Origin: Candidatus Omnitrophota bacterium
GTDB lineage: Bacteria > Hinthialibacterota > Hinthialibacteria > Hinthialibacterales > Hinthialibacteraceae
Direction of reading: 5' to 3'
Assembly: GCA_016934335.1 (NCBI GenBank)
Contig: JAFGTC010000080.1
Span: forward strand, 1 to 36,625
Length of the DNA: 36,625 bases
Shown here: positions 3,108-36,625 of the stretch, piece after piece
Numbering within the stretch: the first letter of the stretch is position 1
Layout of the letters: every line of letters starts with the position of its first letter
The notes under the pieces: model-generated
Seen by the model: the letters and a program-made list of their open reading frames with translations, nothing else
Databases searched by the model: none
What the model was told of the DNA's origin: nothing
Program-made: the position numbers and the translations under genes

Positions 3108-5336
3108 ATGGTAAAAAACATCTCCGCCCTGATAGGACATGATGATGTCACGAAACTTGTCCAATTTGATGTTCCGGACGGCGAACCGGGATTTTGGGAT
3201 AAACAATACAAATTTGTCGTCGCCGGCGAAAAACCGGTGCGGCGCCTGGACGGAATGGAGAAAGTCACGGGAAAAGCGAAATACACCTATGACATCTATC
3301 GCCCCAATCAGCTCTGCGCTGAATTGGTGCTCTGCCCGCACGCTCATGCCAGAATAGTCGGCGTCGATGCATCGAAAGCGGAAAAAATGCCCGGCGTGCG
3401 CGGCGTTATGCTCGCCGAGAACCTCGACGCCGCCATGTTCGCGGGTTGGATTATCGCCATGGTGGCCGCCGATACCATCCAGCAGGCTCGAGACGCCGCC
3501 CGCTCCGTTCTTGTTGAATATGACGCGCAGGATTTTGTCGTGCTGGAAGACGACGCCGGCAAAGACGACAATCCGATCCGGAAGCCGAGCAGCGGAAATC
3601 CATCCATAAAAGGGGACGTCGAGAAAGGCTTCCAGGAAGCCTTTGCCGTCCATGAAGCCGAATATGTGACGCAGACCACGCCGCATAACTGCCTGGAGAC
3701 TCACGGCTGCGTCGCCGAATTCAAAAACGGCGAATTGACCGTTTGGTTTTCCACGCAATCCCTGTGGAGCATGCAGCAGGCGGTCGCCGGATATGGCGGT
3801 ATGCCGCTGAATAAAACGCGCGTGATCACCGAATACATGGGCGGCGGCTTCGGCAGCAAACTGTTCGGCGAACAGTTTGCCGATATGTGCGTCAAAATGG
3901 CGAAGAAGATCGGACGCCCCATTAAATTCATGGCGAACCGGTACTTTGACAGCGTGGCTTGCGGAAACAAGCCAGCCGCGAAAATGCATGTCAAAATCGG
4001 GGCGCAAAAGGATGGTGCTTTTACGGCGATCCGGGCTGACTGCTTGAATTATCCCGGATTCTCCGGCGGCGCCAGCGTCGCCACTCCCTTCCGAAGCCAT
4101 TACGAATGCCCCAACATCTATACACAAGAAACGAATGTCTATACCAATACCGGCCTGTCTCGACCATTCCGCGCGCCCGGCCGCCCGCAGGGATCTTTCG
4201 GCCTGGAAATGGCCATCGAAGAATTATGCATGAAGATGGGACTCGATCCCTACGAAGTGAAAATCAAAAATGTCGATGTCAGTCCGCTCGACCCGCGAAA
4301 ATACCAATTTGAAGTCGGCGCGGAGCGGTTCGGCTGGAAAAAGAAATTCAAGAAGCACGGCAGCGATGCCGGCCCCGTAAAAACCGGCGTCGGCTGCGCG
4401 GTGACCTATTGGGGATACTCCGGCGACCCCGGCGGAGCGGTCTGCCGCTGCACCTTGTTTATGGACGGCAGCGCGGAGGTGGCCATCGGCTGCCAGGATC
4501 TGGGCACCGGATTCCGCACCATGGCGGCCTGCACTGCTGCGGAGACGCTGGGGATCGATGTACAGCGCATCCAGGTGCTGACGGGTGACACCGATATCGG
4601 CTTAGTCGGCCCGCTGAGCGGGGGGAGTAAAACCACTCCGACTGTCGCACCCGCCATCAAAAGCGCCTGCTACAAAGCCCAGCAGAAACTGTTCGGCAGA
4701 ATCGCCGGCGATTGGGATGCAAAGCCGGAGGATATTGTATGCCGTGAGAACGCGGTCTTTAACAAAGAGAATCCGGAGCAGAAAATGCCCTGGAACGAAG
4801 CCGCCCAAAAAGTGGGGAGCAATATGATCGTCGCTTTGGGCGAGCATATTCCCCCACCCGATGTAGAAGGCATTCGGATTGGCACAGGCCTGCGCGGCGC
4901 CCAATTCGCGCAGGTGGAAGTGAATGTCGAAACCGGCAAGATTTCCTGCAAAAAAGTCGTCGCGGTGCAGGACTGCGGCCGCGCCATGGCCAAAGCCCAG
5001 GCGGAGAGTCAGATCTGCGGCGGCGTCATCCAAGGAGTCAGTTACGCCCTGTTTGAAGACCGGATCATGGATTCGGTACTGGGCCGCCAGCTGAATCCGC
5101 AGATGGAGCATTACAAAATTCTCAATGCCATGGAAGCGCCGGACATCGAACCCATCCTGATCGATGTGTTTGATCCGGTGAATTGCGCCAGCGCCAAGGG
5201 AATCGGAGAACCTCCGCATGTTCCCACCGCGGCCGCTGTCGCCTGCGCGGTATGCAATGCCATTGGAAAGCCTATCCGCTCGCTTCCAATCACCCCTTAC
5301 AAAGTTCTCGAAGCGCTGTATGGAGAGAGACGTTAA
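3108..5336 (+). CDS. Xanthine-oxidase-family molybdopterin-binding subunit
   Basis: The open frame can be extended back to 3033, but the ATG at 3108 is preferred. It follows GGAGGGTGA, begins 5 bases after the previous stop, and avoids a 25-residue extension with no homology to the family. The protein has 742 residues, normal for PaoC/CoxL-like subunits. Visible motifs include GGGFGSK, RAPGRPQGSFGLEMA, CQDLGTGFRTM and, near the C-terminus, KGIGEPPHVPTAAAVACAV, whose GE carries the catalytic glutamate of the family. There is no signal peptide of its own, so it would travel with the Tat-tagged small subunit. No XdhC/PaoD-type maturation gene is seen in the window. The gene ends inside a duplicated segment (5314 onward). 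Confidence 0.9.
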   Translation: MVKNISALIGHDDVTKLVQFDVPDGEPGFWDKQYKFVVAGEKPVRRLDGMEKVTGKAKYTYDIYRPNQLCAELVLCPHAHARIVGVDASKAEKMPGVRGVMLAENLDAAMFAGWIIAMVAADTIQQARDAARSVLVEYDAQDFVVLEDDAGKDDNPIRKPSSGNPSIKGDVEKGFQEAFAVHEAEYVTQTTPHNCLETHGCVAEFKNGELTVWFSTQSLWSMQQAVAGYGGMPLNKTRVITEYMGGGFGSKLFGEQFADMCVKMAKKIGRPIKFMANRYFDSVACGNKPAAKMHVKIGAQKDGAFTAIRADCLNYPGFSGGASVATPFRSHYECPNIYTQETNVYTNTGLSRPFRAPGRPQGSFGLEMAIEELCMKMGLDPYEVKIKNVDVSPLDPRKYQFEVGAERFGWKKKFKKHGSDAGPVKTGVGCAVTYWGYSGDPGGAVCRCTLFMDGSAEVAIGCQDLGTGFRTMAACTAAETLGIDVQRIQVLTGDTDIGLVGPLSGGSKTTPTVAPAIKSACYKAQQKLFGRIAGDWDAKPEDIVCRENAVFNKENPEQKMPWNEAAQKVGSNMIVALGEHIPPPDVEGIRIGTGLRGAQFAQVEVNVETGKISCKKVVAVQDCGRAMAKAQAESQICGGVIQGVSYALFEDRIMDSVLGRQLNPQMEHYKILNAMEAPDIEPILIDVFDPVNCASAKGIGEPPHVPTAAAVACAVCNAIGKPIRSLPITPYKVLEALYGERR

Positions 5337-31886: not shown

Positions 31887-32218
31887 TCAGAGTGACGCGC
31901 AGGCGGCATAATGTACGCACAGGAGTTGGGGGAAAGCCGGTTGGGCAATGATTTTCTTGATTGGGGGGGAGATAACAGCGGAACTTGTGCGGGATTGCTT
32001 AAATTGATCCCAGATCAACCGGCAATCCATCTGAGTGAATCGTTCTTCCAGGCTTTTGCAGCCATTCAGTATGACTTTTTCATAATCCTTCTGTTCAAGA
32101 TTAGACGCCAAGGGAGTTGAGGGAAGCATGTGGGTGAGTGTTTTCCCCATGCTGGAGAATCCACTTTTCTTCCGGTTTCGCCGCCGTAAATCCCGGAAGA
32201 AGCGCTCCAATATATTAT
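31887..32218 (-). pseudogene. DDE transposase, C-terminal part, cut off by the recombinase element
   Basis: The minus-strand frame reads NNILERFFRDLRRRNRKK, then GKTLTHMLPSTPLASNLEQ and LEERFTQMD. This is the end of the transposase whose first part lies at 35613-36625 on the same strand. ILERFFRDLRR carries the third catalytic residue (E) of the DDE triad. The open frame extends rightward to 32261, but the bases after 32218 belong to the inserted element. Joining 32218 to 35614 gives PQRTNNILERFF without a frame change. Confidence 0.8.
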
Positions 32219-32241
32219 TGGATAGCATCATCAATTGCACC
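32218..32241. other. Left attachment site (attL)
   Basis: The core TTGG (32218-32221) is followed by 12 element bases and then ATTGCACC (32234-32241), the exact reverse complement of the arm at the right end. Left of the core is host transposase sequence. In the circle the two arms stand symmetrically, 15 bases from a central TT. Confidence 0.65.
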
Positions 32242-32527
32242 CTTACAGGGTGTTGAACCAAAGACTTTCAAAGTCACACATCCCTTTCACCCATTATATG
32301 GCCGTGAACTTGACTTGGTGATTCGCCGCAAAAATTGGGGAGAAGACCGAGTCTATTATCATGACGAAACAGGCAACCTCATTTCACTCCCAATCCAGTA
32401 TACAAGCGTAAAAGAGATTGATCCGTTTGTGGTAATTGCTGCAGGCCGATCTTTGTTTCGCTTCCAGGATTTGGTGAGTCTCGTTCGTGTAATCAAGGAG
32501 GAGAAAGGAAAGGAAGCGGAGAGATGA
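32219..32527 (+). CDS. DUF5372-like protein, body without its start
   Basis: The frame contains KVTHPFHPLYGRELDLV, RRKNWGEDRVYYHD, SLPIQYTSV, DPFVVIAAGRSLFRFQDLV. This is the DUF5372-type small protein that I recall as an accompaniment of recombinase elements; its function is unknown. The frame is open upstream into the host transposase (ATG at 32138), but no ATG or ribosome site lies inside the element. If the ends are joined in a circle, the ATG at 35599 with AAGGAGG ahead of it continues in frame as MKCNRWIASSIAPLQG into this body, giving a 107-residue protein. The stop is at 32525-32527. Confidence 0.7.
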   Translation, partial: WIASSIAPLQGVEPKTFKVTHPFHPLYGRELDLVIRRKNWGEDRVYYHDETGNLISLPIQYTSVKEIDPFVVIAAGRSLFRFQDLVSLVRVIKEEKGKEAER

Positions 32528-32674
32528 TAACGAATAGATGGCCCCAGAGGCGTAAATTAAATTATGTCATTAATGTAAATGGAAATATGCCGATATCCCA
32601 GTATGGTTTTTGGAGTACAAAGGATTAATTTGAAAAAAAATCAAATATAACAGATGGTATTTGAGAAATACGAC

Positions 32675-32702
32675 TTTACAAAAACGAGAAGTGTAACATA
32701 AT
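32675..32702 (+). promoter_or_regulatory. Promoter for the HTH-recombinase operon
   Basis: TTTACA (32675-32680) and CATAAT (32697-32702), each a 5-of-6 match, are 16 bases apart, 43 bases ahead of the HTH start. A TTTGA/TCAAA dyad around A7 stands just upstream (about 32628-32645) and could be an operator. The gap 32528-32744 is AT-rich and otherwise empty. Confidence 0.5.
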
Positions 32703-32744
32703 TATATTTACAGTCATGCCATCTTATTCCTCTGGAGGTCTTCG

Positions 32745-33227
32745 ATGTCTACTCGCAATCCTGCCGATGCCAAAAACCAAACTTTGCGCGAACAAGGAAC
32801 CCTCAATCCCCATCCCGAAACCGTACGCGATCCACTCTTCCTCGAAAACGATTTTTTTGATCCGAGAGATCTCATTCAGGTCAAGTACGAAATGTTGCGT
32901 CGAGTGCAAATCGAGGGGCAGTCCATTCAAGGCACAGTCCAGGACTTTGGCTTCTCTCGGCCCTCCTTCTACAAAGCCCAAGACGCTTTTGGGAAAGAAG
33001 GACTTCCCGGCCTTCTTCCCAGACGCCGGGGGCCCCAACGCGCCCACAAGCTTACCGAGGAGATCATGGAATTTATTGAGCAGACTTTGCGAGAGGAAGG
33101 TCCTTTGCGGGCGACGGCTTTAGCTCGACGGGTCGAAGAACAATTTGGTGTGCTCGTTCATCCACGCAGTATTGAACGGGGATTGACACGACGGAAAAAA
33201 AAACGACAGGAGGCAGAACGAGCCTAG
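32745..33227 (+). CDS. Helix-turn-helix protein of the recombinase element
   Basis: The protein has 160 residues and a strong GGAGG ribosome site (32734-32738). The region of about residues 45-85 is a transposase-type helix-turn-helix (VKYEMLRRVQIEGQS, TVQDFGFSRPSFYKAQ, then FGKEGLPGLLPRRRGP). A second helical unit follows (IMEFIEQTLREEGPLRATAL, then VHPRSIERGLTRR). It is probably a DNA-binding partner or regulator of the recombinase; such a gene commonly precedes recombinases of this type as I recall the arrangement. Near its end lies a run of nine As (33195-33203). In the reading frame given, the protein stops 24 bases later; one base fewer leads into the next ORF. Confidence 0.75.
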   Translation: MSTRNPADAKNQTLREQGTLNPHPETVRDPLFLENDFFDPRDLIQVKYEMLRRVQIEGQSIQGTVQDFGFSRPSFYKAQDAFGKEGLPGLLPRRRGPQRAHKLTEEIMEFIEQTLREEGPLRATALARRVEEQFGVLVHPRSIERGLTRRKKKRQEAERA

Positions 33228-33609
33228 GGAAGCATGGAAAGGTTTTTCCCAGCAAGACTTAGCGGCTTGCTACGAGAAACTCCGCAATCAAGTCCTGGGA
33301 AACGCAGTCTTTCCCTCAAGAGGTTTGGGGTGGGCGTTATTCATTCGAAAAGGAATGAAGGCGTGGATAGCCACTTGGCAGGAAAATATTCCTCCATTGC
33401 GGGCTATTCCTGCGAGCCAGTCCCCAAACGAAATTTCTCTGGGAGCGCATTTTTCCATTAGTGTGGCAACCTTGATAGCCAATATCATAACAACTCTTTA
33501 TCAGGAGGAGAACAATGGAGAGAGCCACTCATCAGAAAGTGACTTCCGATCATCTCAAACGCAATGCCTATCTTTACATTCGCCAGTCGACGGTGCGGCA
33601 GGTCTTTGA
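33204..33609 (+). CDS. Linking ORF without a start codon, reached by loss of one A
   Basis: The +1 frame after the A9 run is open to 33609 and reads REAWKGFSQQDLAACYEKL, then RNQVLG and GLGWALFIRKGMKAWIATW. The parts YEKLRNQVL and GLGWALFIRKGMKAWI look like a small protein that I recall between the HTH and recombinase genes of related elements. No ATG, GTG or TTG stands before YEKLR in this frame, so it would be made only as a fusion with the HTH protein, or it has lost its start. Its tail overlaps the recombinase start by 95 bases and includes the recombinase ribosome site. Confidence 0.5.
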
Positions 33610-34621
33610 AAACACGGAAAGCACGCAGCGCCAATACGCGCTTCGTCAACGAGCCGTGGCGTTGGGATGGCTCGCCGAACAGGTGGTTGTGATCGACTGT
33701 GATTTGGGGTATTCCGGTGGAACGACAGGCGACCGGCAAGGCTTTCAACAGTTGGTGGCGGAAGTGGGGATGGGAAAAGCCGGATTGGTGATGGGATTGG
33801 AAGTGTCTCGATTGGCCCGAAATTCCGCCGATTGGCACCGGTTATTGGAAATCTGTGGATTGACAGGGACTTTGCTCCTGGACGAGGATGGACTCTATGA
33901 TCCGCAGCATTTCAACGACCGTCTTGTGCTGGGACTAAAAGGAACCATGAGCGAAGCGGAACTGCACTTGTTGCGAGCCCGCTTGCATGGGGGGATTTTG
34001 AACAAAGCGGAGCGAGGCGAATTACGGATTACCCTTCCCATTGGATACGTGTATAACTCAGAAGGACGGGTTATCCTGGATCCGGACAAACAAGTGCAAG
34101 AAAGTATTCGAATGTTTTTTCAAACCTACCGCCGGCTAGGATCGGCTTGGAGAATGATTCAGACTTTTCACAAACAAGGTCTGTTATTTCCAAGGCGTGT
34201 ACGCTACGGGGCGAGGAAAGGGGATTTGGGTTGGGGAGAGTTGCAGTATTCCCAGGCGTTGTACATGCTTCATAATCCCCGATATACCGGTGCATTTTGT
34301 TATGCCCGAACTCGCACCAGAAAAAAAGTGGATGGAGGAATGGCGACCAAGCGATTACCGCCCGAAGAATGGCATACGCTCTTACGAGGAGCACACGATG
34401 CCTATATTTCCTGGGAGGAGTATGAAGATAATCAGCATCGATTACAAGAAACAGCCCAGGCTTACGGAAAAGACCGGTGGAAGAGTCCGCCTCGGGAAGG
34501 GCCAGCGTTGCTCCAGGGATTGGTGATGTGTGGTCAATGTGGACGAAGAATGACCGTTCGTTATCATCAACGGTCGGAAAAGTCGGTTCCCGACTATGTA
34601 TGTCAAAAAAAACCAGATTGA
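33515..34621 (+). CDS. Large serine recombinase, N-terminal part (catalytic domain, recombinase domain, half of zinc ribbon)
   Basis: The start has a strong AGGAGGAG site. The 368-residue frame has the resolvase-type catalytic domain: nucleophile serine 25 in YLYIRQSTVRQ, ESTQRQYALRQR, then GYSGGTTGDRQGFQQL and the arginine motif LEVSRLARNSADWHRLLE. The recombinase domain follows (LPIGYVYNSEGRVILDP, HNPRYTGAFCYARTR). Near the end comes the zinc ribbon half CGQCGRRMTVRYHQR and YVCQ. At an A8 run (34605-34612) this frame ends at TGA (34619-34621), before the fourth cysteine. Loss of one A joins it to the next frame without any missing residues. Alone it lacks the coiled coil that large serine recombinases need. 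Confidence 0.85.
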   Translation: MERATHQKVTSDHLKRNAYLYIRQSTVRQVFENTESTQRQYALRQRAVALGWLAEQVVVIDCDLGYSGGTTGDRQGFQQLVAEVGMGKAGLVMGLEVSRLARNSADWHRLLEICGLTGTLLLDEDGLYDPQHFNDRLVLGLKGTMSEAELHLLRARLHGGILNKAERGELRITLPIGYVYNSEGRVILDPDKQVQESIRMFFQTYRRLGSAWRMIQTFHKQGLLFPRRVRYGARKGDLGWGELQYSQALYMLHNPRYTGAFCYARTRTRKKVDGGMATKRLPPEEWHTLLRGAHDAYISWEEYEDNQHRLQETAQAYGKDRWKSPPREGPALLQGLVMCGQCGRRMTVRYHQRSEKSVPDYVCQKKPD

Positions 34622-35609
34622 ATATGGTGAATCGATCTGTCAACAAATACCGGGGGCAGAAATCGACGAAGCCGTGGGTAACCTTCTGGTGGAATCGATG
34701 ACACCTTTCACCTTGGAGATCGCCTTGCAGGTGCAGCAGGAATTGCAATCGCGAATGAAAGAAGCCGATCGATTGCGGCAAAAACAAGTGGAGAGAGCAC
34801 GCTATGAAGTGGAATTGGCTCGACGCCGTTATATGCAAGTGGATCCCGAGAATCGATTGGTCGCGGATGCGCTAGAAACAGAATGGAACGAGAAACTCAG
34901 AGCATTGGCAGAGACACAAGAAACCTACGAAAAACAGAGTCAAAATGATCGTCTCCTTTTGGACGAAACCCGGCGAGAAGAAATTATGGCGCTTGCTACT
35001 GATATTCCCCGGCTTTGGCATAATCCCCAGACTTCTCAACGGGAGCGCAAACGGATTGTTCGTCTGTTACTGGAAGATGTTACTCTCGTGAAGGATACTC
35101 AAATTCATGTTCACGTTCGCTTTAAAGGAGGAGGCATCAAAACATTGATTCTCGCGATACCATCTCCTTCTTGGAAAACATGGACAACGGATCCCAAAGT
35201 GGTCAAAGAGATTGATCAATTGCTGGACCATCATACAGAGAGTGAAATCGCCACGATTCTCAACCAACGGGGCTATCGTTCCGGGAAAGGACGGGTATTT
35301 GATACCATCTGTGTCGCTCGAATCCGCCAGTCCTATAAAATAAAAAAACGCGTTGATCGCCTAAAAGAAAAAGGTATGCTAACTCAAGAAGAGATGGCTA
35401 AACGACTTGCAGTGGGAACATGGAAAATCCGGGAGTGGCGCAACCTTGGGGTTTTGAAGGCTTATGCCTACAACGATAGGAATGAGTGTTTATATGAACC
35501 GCCAAGTACAAATTCGCCGATCAAAACGATGAAGCAAAACCTTCCGATAAAGAAACATTCTCCAGAGGTCTCTTCTGATTGTATGAAGGAGGTGCAATAT
35601 GAAGTGTAA
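34613..35609 (+). CDS. Large serine recombinase, C-terminal part in the +1 frame
   Basis: The frame continues the recombinase as NQIEYGESICQQIPGAEIDE, supplying the fourth zinc cysteine. A long helical coiled coil follows (VQQELQSRMKEADRLRQKQ, ARRRYMQVDPENRLV), then a C-terminal helix-turn-helix region (ESEIATILNQRGYRSGKG, TQEEMAKRLAVGTWKIREW). An ATG at 34596 could start it as a separate protein, but it has no ribosome site and lies inside the zinc ribbon. With the N-terminal part the total is about 700 residues, normal for the family. The stop at 35607-35609 overlaps the start of the DUF5372 gene (35599), which suggests coupled translation in the circle. Confidence 0.8.
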
Positions 35610-35613
35610 TCGT
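35586..35613 (+). promoter_or_regulatory. Ribosome site and first codons of the DUF5372-like gene at the right end
   Basis: AAGGAGG (35586-35592) stands 6 bases before ATG (35599-35601), followed by AAG TGT AAT CG and then the TTGG core. In the integrated state this start runs into antisense transposase sequence and stops at 35757. In the circle the next codon is TGG at 32219, which continues the DUF5372 frame. The ATG overlaps the recombinase stop. Confidence 0.6.
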
Positions 35614-35616
35614 TGG
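35591..35616. other. Right attachment site (attR)
   Basis: GGTGCAAT (35591-35598), 14 bases, then TTGG (35613-35616), after which host transposase sequence begins (TGCGCTGGGG). The arm is the exact inverse of that at 32234-32241. Confidence 0.65.
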
Positions 35617-36625
35617 TGCGCTGGGGCTGGATCATTACGATCCCCTGGGGCGCGGCGACGGGAATGGGATCGGCGAATAATTTCCCCCAATATTGATCGA
35701 TCTGCGCGACCATCTTTTTATAGGCCTTGTCCCACAGGAACCGCTTATCGGTTGTGATCCAGGTTCGAAACGCTTCCACGTTCTCTTGGATAGTGGATAC
35801 CGGCGTATCGTCCCCCCCATCATTCAAGCCCTTCTTCCCTTCCGGGAGCGCCAATCGCAAGGCGGAGCGAAGCGCATCAAAGACTTCAATCTTCTCTTCG
35901 ATTTTGGCTAAATGGACGAGCAAGTTTTCATTGTTAACGGTCTTTCGCAAGACATGGAGCATTCGAAAGAAGGGCCAATTGAAATCGAGATCCCTCTGGA
36001 AGGACGTAACCAACAGATCCCGCAGCGCCGATTCCAACGTATGCAACCGCTGCAGAAAGACGACATGCGTTCGATCGAAAGGAAAACCGTATCCGCCGAA
36101 TTGATCGACGGGATGAAGCGCCCAATGAAGTAAGGCATAGGTAAACGCGGCCGGGGTCTGTGCGAGCAAGGACTGGGAAGAACATCCCTCATTCAATCCC
36201 ATGAGAATCTCTTGAAAGACGCTCCGTTCCTCCCGGAACAGGGGCTCAAGCGTTTTGATGTAACTCCGGAGGGCCGTTCGAATCTTGAGCCGCCGCAACC
36301 CCTTTCGGATTTCATCATAATCTTTCTCGAGCAGATCGTTGCCGATGTCGCGCAGGAAATGGTAATGGCAGATGAAATCGGGGATGCCGGGAAACACTTC
36401 CTCAACGGCTTTGAGGATGCCAGTCCCCATATCGTGAACCAACGCGATCGGCGGGCCGTAGTCCCGCTGGACGCCTCGAAAGAATGACGCGATGGAGGCG
36501 GCGTTCTCGGAAGGATATTTGGCGCTGGCCAAAACGATGTTCGACAGGCCGTCCATGCCGGTGAACACATGGGGGCTGTCGCTTTCGCAGGTTCCATCCA
36601 CATGAAGGATATATCCCCCCTGAGA
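35613..36625 (-). pseudogene. DDE transposase, N-terminal and central part, interrupted by the element (runs off right edge)
   Basis: The minus-strand frame is open from the right edge (SQGGYILHVDGTCESD). It contains the first catalytic aspartate in HVDGTCE, the second in ALVHDMGTGILKAVEEV, and FPGIPDFICHYHFLRDIGND with the helical domain after it. The frame meets the element after MIQPQRTN; the rest of the gene is at 31887-32218. All three DDE residues are therefore present if the two parts are joined. The start of the gene lies beyond base 36625. I recognise a DDE transposase of the QRTNN-ILERFFR kind but do not name the IS family. Confidence 0.8.

Follow-up and report, generated by a model that had tools for sequence, protein, structure and literature searches.

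The archaeal SSV-type 'suicidal' integrases carry the attachment site of the free element (attP) within the integrase gene, which integration splits and the circle restores (PMC8371274), and in the integration-dependent immunity of mycobacteriophage BPs, integration removes the C-terminus of the repressor and yields an active repressor (PMC4557955). Promoters made in the circle have been described for IS110/IS1111 (PMC11187229) and for the integrative and conjugative elements (ICEs) ICEKp1 and ICEclc (PMC13023037), and some large serine recombinases, partly multi-targeting, use a TT core (PMC10083194). Here we describe a 3.4-kb serine-recombinase element from a Candidatus Omnitrophota bacterium (contig JAFGTC010000080.1 of assembly GCA_016934335.1), whose TT cores lie at 32218 and 35613 of the analysed stretch of 36,625 nucleotides (the window), inside a gene on the minus strand. 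The attP of this element very probably falls within the 5′ end of a gene of the DUF5372 family, so that integration would take the start of the gene away and the circle would give it back.

As with the SSV-type integrases, the attP lies in one of the element's own genes, to be split by integration and restored in the circle (PMC8371274). As far as that source describes its system, the split gene there is the tyrosine integrase. In the present element, a small accessory gene is split, with no more than the ribosome site, the start and a few following codons in its far part, and integration leaves the recombinase, a serine enzyme, whole; the DUF5372 gene holds attP, which overlaps at most the end of the recombinase gene. 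With BPs, the element shares an attP within a gene and free and integrated forms that differ in product, but BPs is described as losing a C-terminus with activation of the repressor, whereas here the N-terminus with the start is removed and the gene should be silenced (PMC4557955). Joining of the ends would turn a gene on in the circle, as in IS110/IS1111 and the ICEs (PMC11187229, PMC13023037), yet those circles are described as bringing or making a promoter for the recombinase gene, and this one would make a reading frame and a translation start for another gene. The recombinase type and the two-base core resemble those of the TT-core large serine recombinases, although a circle-completed accessory gene was not found in the accessible account of those enzymes (PMC10083194). 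In open-licence literature (titles and abstract openings), we found no split translation start for an accessory gene, the nearest system being the SSV-type integrases (PMC8371274). That literature gave no mention of DUF5372, and y4bA was not found in the NGR234 literature among the matches listed. Tn4451 is likewise said to make a promoter in its circle and would stand with the elements in which end joining turns a gene on.

At the right end of the element, on the plus strand, the ribosome-binding sequence AAGGAGG (35586-35592) is followed after six bases by ATG (35599-35601) and by AAG TGT AAT CG, which reaches 35612 and runs into the right core dinucleotide TT (35613-35614; TTGG at 35613-35616). 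The ATG stands 14 bp before the core, and the recombinase stop TAA (35607-35609) lies inside the stretch between them. At the left end, a frame-blind choice places the core dinucleotide TT, again within TTGG, at 32218-32219; a plus-strand frame opens there and ends with a stop at 32527, and this DUF5372 body (32219-32527, stop included) matches Pfam PF17342 with an E-value of 9.5e-22 (77.3 bits against a cut-off of 25), which places it in the family. No in-frame ATG, GTG or TTG occurs in the window's left end between the core and the conserved THPF motif, and joining the ends at one copy of the core gives MKCNRWIASSIAPLQGVEPKTFK..., a protein of 107 residues. An earlier note on this DNA had claimed a left-end frame without a start inside the element, AAGGAGG and an ATG overlapping the recombinase stop at the right end, and their in-frame joining to 107 residues, all of which was borne out. 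In the integrated state, the frame extends into host DNA as far as a GTG 80 bp upstream, which has no Shine-Dalgarno (SD)-like motif (open reading frame of 129 amino acids from 32138), so the lack of a start holds within the element only.

We propose that the ribosome site and start codon belong to the right half-site, and that the gene from its fifth to sixth codon on belongs to the left one. Excision or entry would produce a circle, as expected from established serine-recombinase chemistry, in which the recombinase message would continue directly into the DUF5372 start, often with overlapping stop and start, and the protein would be made; after integration, the start would be stranded at the far end and the body would lose it, leaving the gene silent. 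The DUF5372 protein would then be made only from free circles or head-to-tail copies. Empty sites are available for a relative, the copy in Sinorhizobium meliloti 1021 (L068). Joining its flanks at one TT yields a sequence that matches the annotated istA gene of an IS21 in plasmid pSmeSM11a and a like stretch in pSymA of Rm41, with no gap or mismatch at the junction in either plasmid, which fixes the core in that relative. Its two-base core is common to site and element with no further target duplication, and the window would follow the same pattern. Among the matches listed, 8 of 60 right-end matches end exactly at the second T, and the others continue for 1-24 bases or begin in similar target DNA. 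The right end in S. meliloti 2011 is identical to that of L068, a copy whose recombinase frame is unbroken.

The earlier note had also suggested looking in related elements for the same joining of ATG, core and body. Species genomes gave 24 loci and the plasmid search 129 matching records; 71 loci were kept, the window included, and the 48 with DUF5372 and a recombinase end were examined. The joining is in frame and without a stop in 41 of these 48 (window included), 4 do not join, and 3 (L118, L126 and L013) are unreadable at one end. Joining was scored in 43 loci (L054, L118, L126 and L132 lacked a right site and L013 a left end), and with the left core set by a frame-blind motif score, 36 of the 43 join in frame. 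L067, L112 and L114 do so with the core hand-set 14 bp from AYTGC, and L010 and L132 when read by eye, TT being assumed for L010, whose contig begins just after the core. The attP read from the loci is GGTGCART, 14 bp, a two-base core, 14 bp and AYTGC, in which the 14-bp right arm opens with the start codon and start and body stand 30 bp apart over the core. Most loci have TT as this core, L018 and L114 have GG, and L119, L134 and L135 have CC, these five having been picked by eye.

Without L056, L131, L010 and L017, and with hand-set cores for L067, L112 and L114, a set of 39 loci was obtained. The joined stretch is stop-free in the DUF5372 frame in 39 of 39, against 2 and 5 of 39 in the other two frames, and the stretch from start to domain measures 66, 69, 72 or 78 nt (in L112, where the motif was unmatched, it was measured over 24 nt only). 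Of the 39 right sites, 35 carry an SD-like motif at the same place, against 9 of the 39 left mirror arms, and the start lies between -59 and +36 nt from the recombinase stop (search range -80 to +220), with an ATGA overlap in 21 of 39. The bodies form 28 clusters at 70% identity, all of which retain the split, the failing loci having been left out beforehand, and dN/dS values of 0.05-0.48 in computable pairs indicate that DUF5372 is under purifying selection. In L010, about 580 bp of extra sequence (3292-3870) separate the recombinase stop from the right end, and the start position reads CTG ATG; as the start is kept despite this gap, it is more than an incidental product of the recombinase end.

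In the window, the right arm (35591-35612, plus strand) consists of GGTGCAAT and the 14 bp that open with the start codon, and the left arm (32220-32241, plus strand) mirrors it with 14 bp followed by ATTGCACC, the reverse complement of GGTGCAAT, a geometry found alike in other loci. Since the core is flanked by inverted repeats (GCART and 14 bp on each side), part of the right-end motif must serve DNA recognition, and the right-end ATG and GGTG could be a recombinase half-site only, with the DUF5372 join a by-product and no protein start. We regard this as highly improbable, as the two arms differ in the features that belong to a start. A start-blind matrix, built from left arms only with the tested locus left out, recovers the same right site in 38 of 39 loci (the miss, L020, is a contig ending at the core), and position 0 is then ATG in 24 and GTG in 14, compared with NTG at 54 of 541 core-matched background positions, true sites included. 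Position 0 is A or G in 38 of 39 right arms, while 36 of the 39 left arms have T or C there, and both the one-sided SD-like motif and the uniformly stop-free joined frame speak against a bare half-site. The sequences offer support that is independent of the fixed geometry, in junction codons that stay stop-free though the arms diverge, in distances that differ by whole codons, and in a start and ribosome site confined to one side. At this level, the split, its conservation and, in a relative, the core are established.

Several observations weigh against a conserved split that works as a switch. L131 is one base out of frame, L056 does not join and has recombinase matches in pieces, L017 does not join at a contig start without TT, and L054 does not join, with a recombinase in pieces and a right core other than TT. 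As the arm spacing is fixed, the agreement in frame across families is partly one inherited event. The first search for right sites required [AG]TG at a distance of 14 bp ahead of TT and ordered the candidates by their resemblance to the arm and to an SD motif (the sites of six loci with other cores, L018, L114, L119, L131, L134 and L135, were picked by eye), and only the start-blind matrix is free of this choice; its result is therefore an agreement between two methods and not a new sample, and the left cores used for it had been scored by right-arm likeness. A codon-position test over the N-terminal stretch was mixed, with a third-position excess in some rhizobial pairs and none in Streptomyces pairs. 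A junction of a circle or tandem was found neither in the window's genome nor in 295 genomes of the genus of G030, and none of 74 matching plasmid records covers 80% of the attP query. Of the earlier note's claim that integration switches the gene off and excision switches it on, the removal of the start and its restoration in the circle follow from the sequence and from the relative's empty sites, whereas the circle junction itself was not found. In the window, moreover, the recombinase frame breaks in two at eight consecutive A (34605-34612, plus strand), whereas 49 other compared loci have a single frame. The window copy is thus possibly unable to excise itself, and it illustrates the arrangement and is not clearly an active element; the break may be a mutation or an assembly error, recoding being less likely.

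A further point on the same side is that an in-frame ATG, GTG or TTG occurs inside the left end before THPF in 20 of 39 loci, which makes internal initiation possible in those. DUF5372 might then also be made in the integrated state, from an internal GTG or TTG or from an upstream host start, and the junction would be no switch; public annotation does set starts in the left end, and the window has its host GTG 80 bp upstream. Nevertheless, this is very unlikely. The internal codon is ATG in 1 locus, an SD-like motif precedes the internal codon in 2 of 39 loci and the host codon in 1 of 39, and in 19 of 39, including the window, an internal start-like codon is absent. The earlier note had named a conserved internal start after the core as the finding that would count against its claim, and the 2 loci with both codon and SD-like motif do not amount to one. 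The public annotation of pNGR234a (L053, 5025) lets the DUF5372 gene begin within the element at an ATA codon, which suggests that translation really starts at another place.

It could also be that the split is real and not regulatory, attP having happened to fall in the 5′ end of a gene needed only at entry, with silencing unselected. A gene used once per transfer would look identical in sequence, but all 28 clusters (at 70% identity, failing loci left out) keep both the split and the coupling to the recombinase stop, although compactness could explain the coupling too. We consider such an unselected split to be on the unlikely side, and prefer the reading in which the start is lost on integration and regained in the circle.

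If the protein is confined to the free form, DUF5372 most likely acts on the recombinase or on the recombinase's DNA sites during the short free phase. Help for the circle in capturing a new target is a possible form of this, somewhat short of probable. Release of resident copies in trans, with DUF5372 as a recombination directionality factor that drives their excision, takes up the earlier note's guess of an excision or directionality factor and seems doubtful to us. DUF5372 is a small protein adjoining a serine recombinase, and large serine recombinases are expected, by default, to give stable integration when no directionality factor is present; but if the factor appears only once a copy is excised, it cannot be what sets off that copy's excision. 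The remaining weight would go to a role in circle survival or transcription. No named family other than DUF5372 was matched in Pfam, NCBIfam, PHROGs or PDB sequences (0 matches in the search of solved-structure sequences), nor was there a strong fold match, which also speaks against the role of a directionality factor.

The AlphaFold model (alignment of 18 sequences; pLDDT 80) has five strands and two helices, the long one C-terminal. Residues 1-11 fall below pLDDT 50, so the junction-encoded N-terminus looks like an unstructured tail, and the far end seems to supply a start and not a fold. Neither the PDB fold search nor the viral structure library gave a match with E up to 0.001. The best VIA-align match (Z 5.5, root-mean-square deviation 2.2, 48 residues) is a common small barrel, and nearly all of the 50 matches listed are SH3, Tudor, KOW, NdhS-like or ribosomal barrels (Z 4.5-5.5, 45-60 residues); no directionality factor is among the fold matches listed, which excludes nothing.

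The rest of the element fits a large serine recombinase unit. Resolvase, Recombinase and zinc-ribbon domains (Pfam Resolvase, Recombinase and Zn_ribbon_recom) stand in one protein, in one frame in the 49 other loci and broken in the window, and inverted half-sites flank the attP core. The window's catalytic part occupies 33515-34621 on the plus strand, and the C-terminal part follows in a different frame (34596-35609, plus strand), recognized by tblastn to relatives and without a Pfam match of its own. A helix-turn-helix protein of 160 amino acids (32745-33227, plus strand) resembles the N-terminal part of IS630/IS481-type transposases (Pfam HTH_32, 1.1e-10), yet its NCBIfam IS630 match of 1.7e-12 is under the family cut-off. 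The interrupted host gene is transposase-like and lies on the minus strand, with its N-terminal part at 35615-36601 and its C-terminal part at 31887-32217. Joined flanks keep the frame open over the junction; the joined protein has no Pfam match, and its N-terminal part resembles IS256 weakly (NCBIfam, 1e-5, below cut-off). A second copy of the window's right flank was not found in its own genome. A promoter and terminator scan of the integrated form gave nothing above shuffles (3 promoter-like sites against a shuffle mean of 3.6).

Joined flanks were compared in ten loci picked by eye out of 33, in minus-strand frames only, and orientation is therefore not counted; the L128 flank is short, and the L068 protein was shortened before the Pfam search. 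In nine of the ten (L005, L018, L066, L067, L068, L079, L114, L119 and L122), they match Pfam transposase or reverse-transcriptase families: the integrase core in L005, L066, L067 and L068 (the last below the curated cut-off), reverse transcriptase in L114, and IS66 TnpB, IS66 transposase, the Mutator family and Y2 in others. For this reason, the elements seem to live inside genes of other mobile elements. The target of L135, on the plus strand, is one that we take from its motif to be a reverse transcriptase.

PF17342 matches occur in 7 of 398 genomes in the phylum of G020, in 8 of 293 in the order of G015 and in 18 of 301 in the phylum of G014, 13 of these above the family cut-off (centre genomes counted); in the window's own phylum, the 1 match in 14 genomes is the window's genome itself. 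Named hosts include Streptomyces, Rhodococcus, many rhizobia, Burkholderiales and one Chloroflexota plasmid, and further hosts are metagenome-assembled genomes named Verrucomicrobia, Eisenbacteria, Aegiribacteria and Peptococcaceae, while no DUF5372 relatives were present in the phages or viral contigs searched. The sample holds close copies (L006, L007 and L009 from one genome; five rhizobial loci), and some contigs start or end at or right beside cores (L020 1-3300, L013 3249, L010 1), as expected of repeats in short-read assemblies. Recombinase relatives free of DUF5372 failed as a control: two of four (L138 and L141) carried DUF5372, and in L139 and L140 the left end has been replaced by other insertion sequences, an IS5 by annotation in L140 and presumably an IS256-like one in L139, with SD and ATG retained at the right end. 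Two distant DUF5372-like loci were not used, L142 because no recombinase is annotated in its stretch and L143 (4330-7330, with a serine recombinase) because its flanks, which we take to be istB-like, run in opposite directions, perhaps through an inversion between two copies. A weak DUF5372-like frame in L120 (2253; 31.9 bits; genome in the order of G015) has an in-frame ATG upstream in a stretch without a recombinase match, and its neighbour gene is presumably P450-like.

We tentatively suggest, at somewhat less than even confidence, that widespread small serine-recombinase elements inside mobile-element genes encode a circle-only protein that sets the recombinase's next act, either a new target or the release of resident copies, with attP sensing the state of the element through a split ribosome site and start codon. 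If the split works as proposed, it would be a translation-level switch without a regulator, in which the DNA form of the element decides whether the gene has a start, and it would account for those DUF5372 genes that carry odd annotated starts or are missing from annotation altogether. For the DUF5372 family, this would fix when the protein acts, namely in the free circle, and for serine recombinases it would point to a candidate partner open to direct testing. The range of integration-split genes, with archaeal integrases and phage repressors as members, would also come to include a transposon-like group of bacterial elements that spans several phyla.

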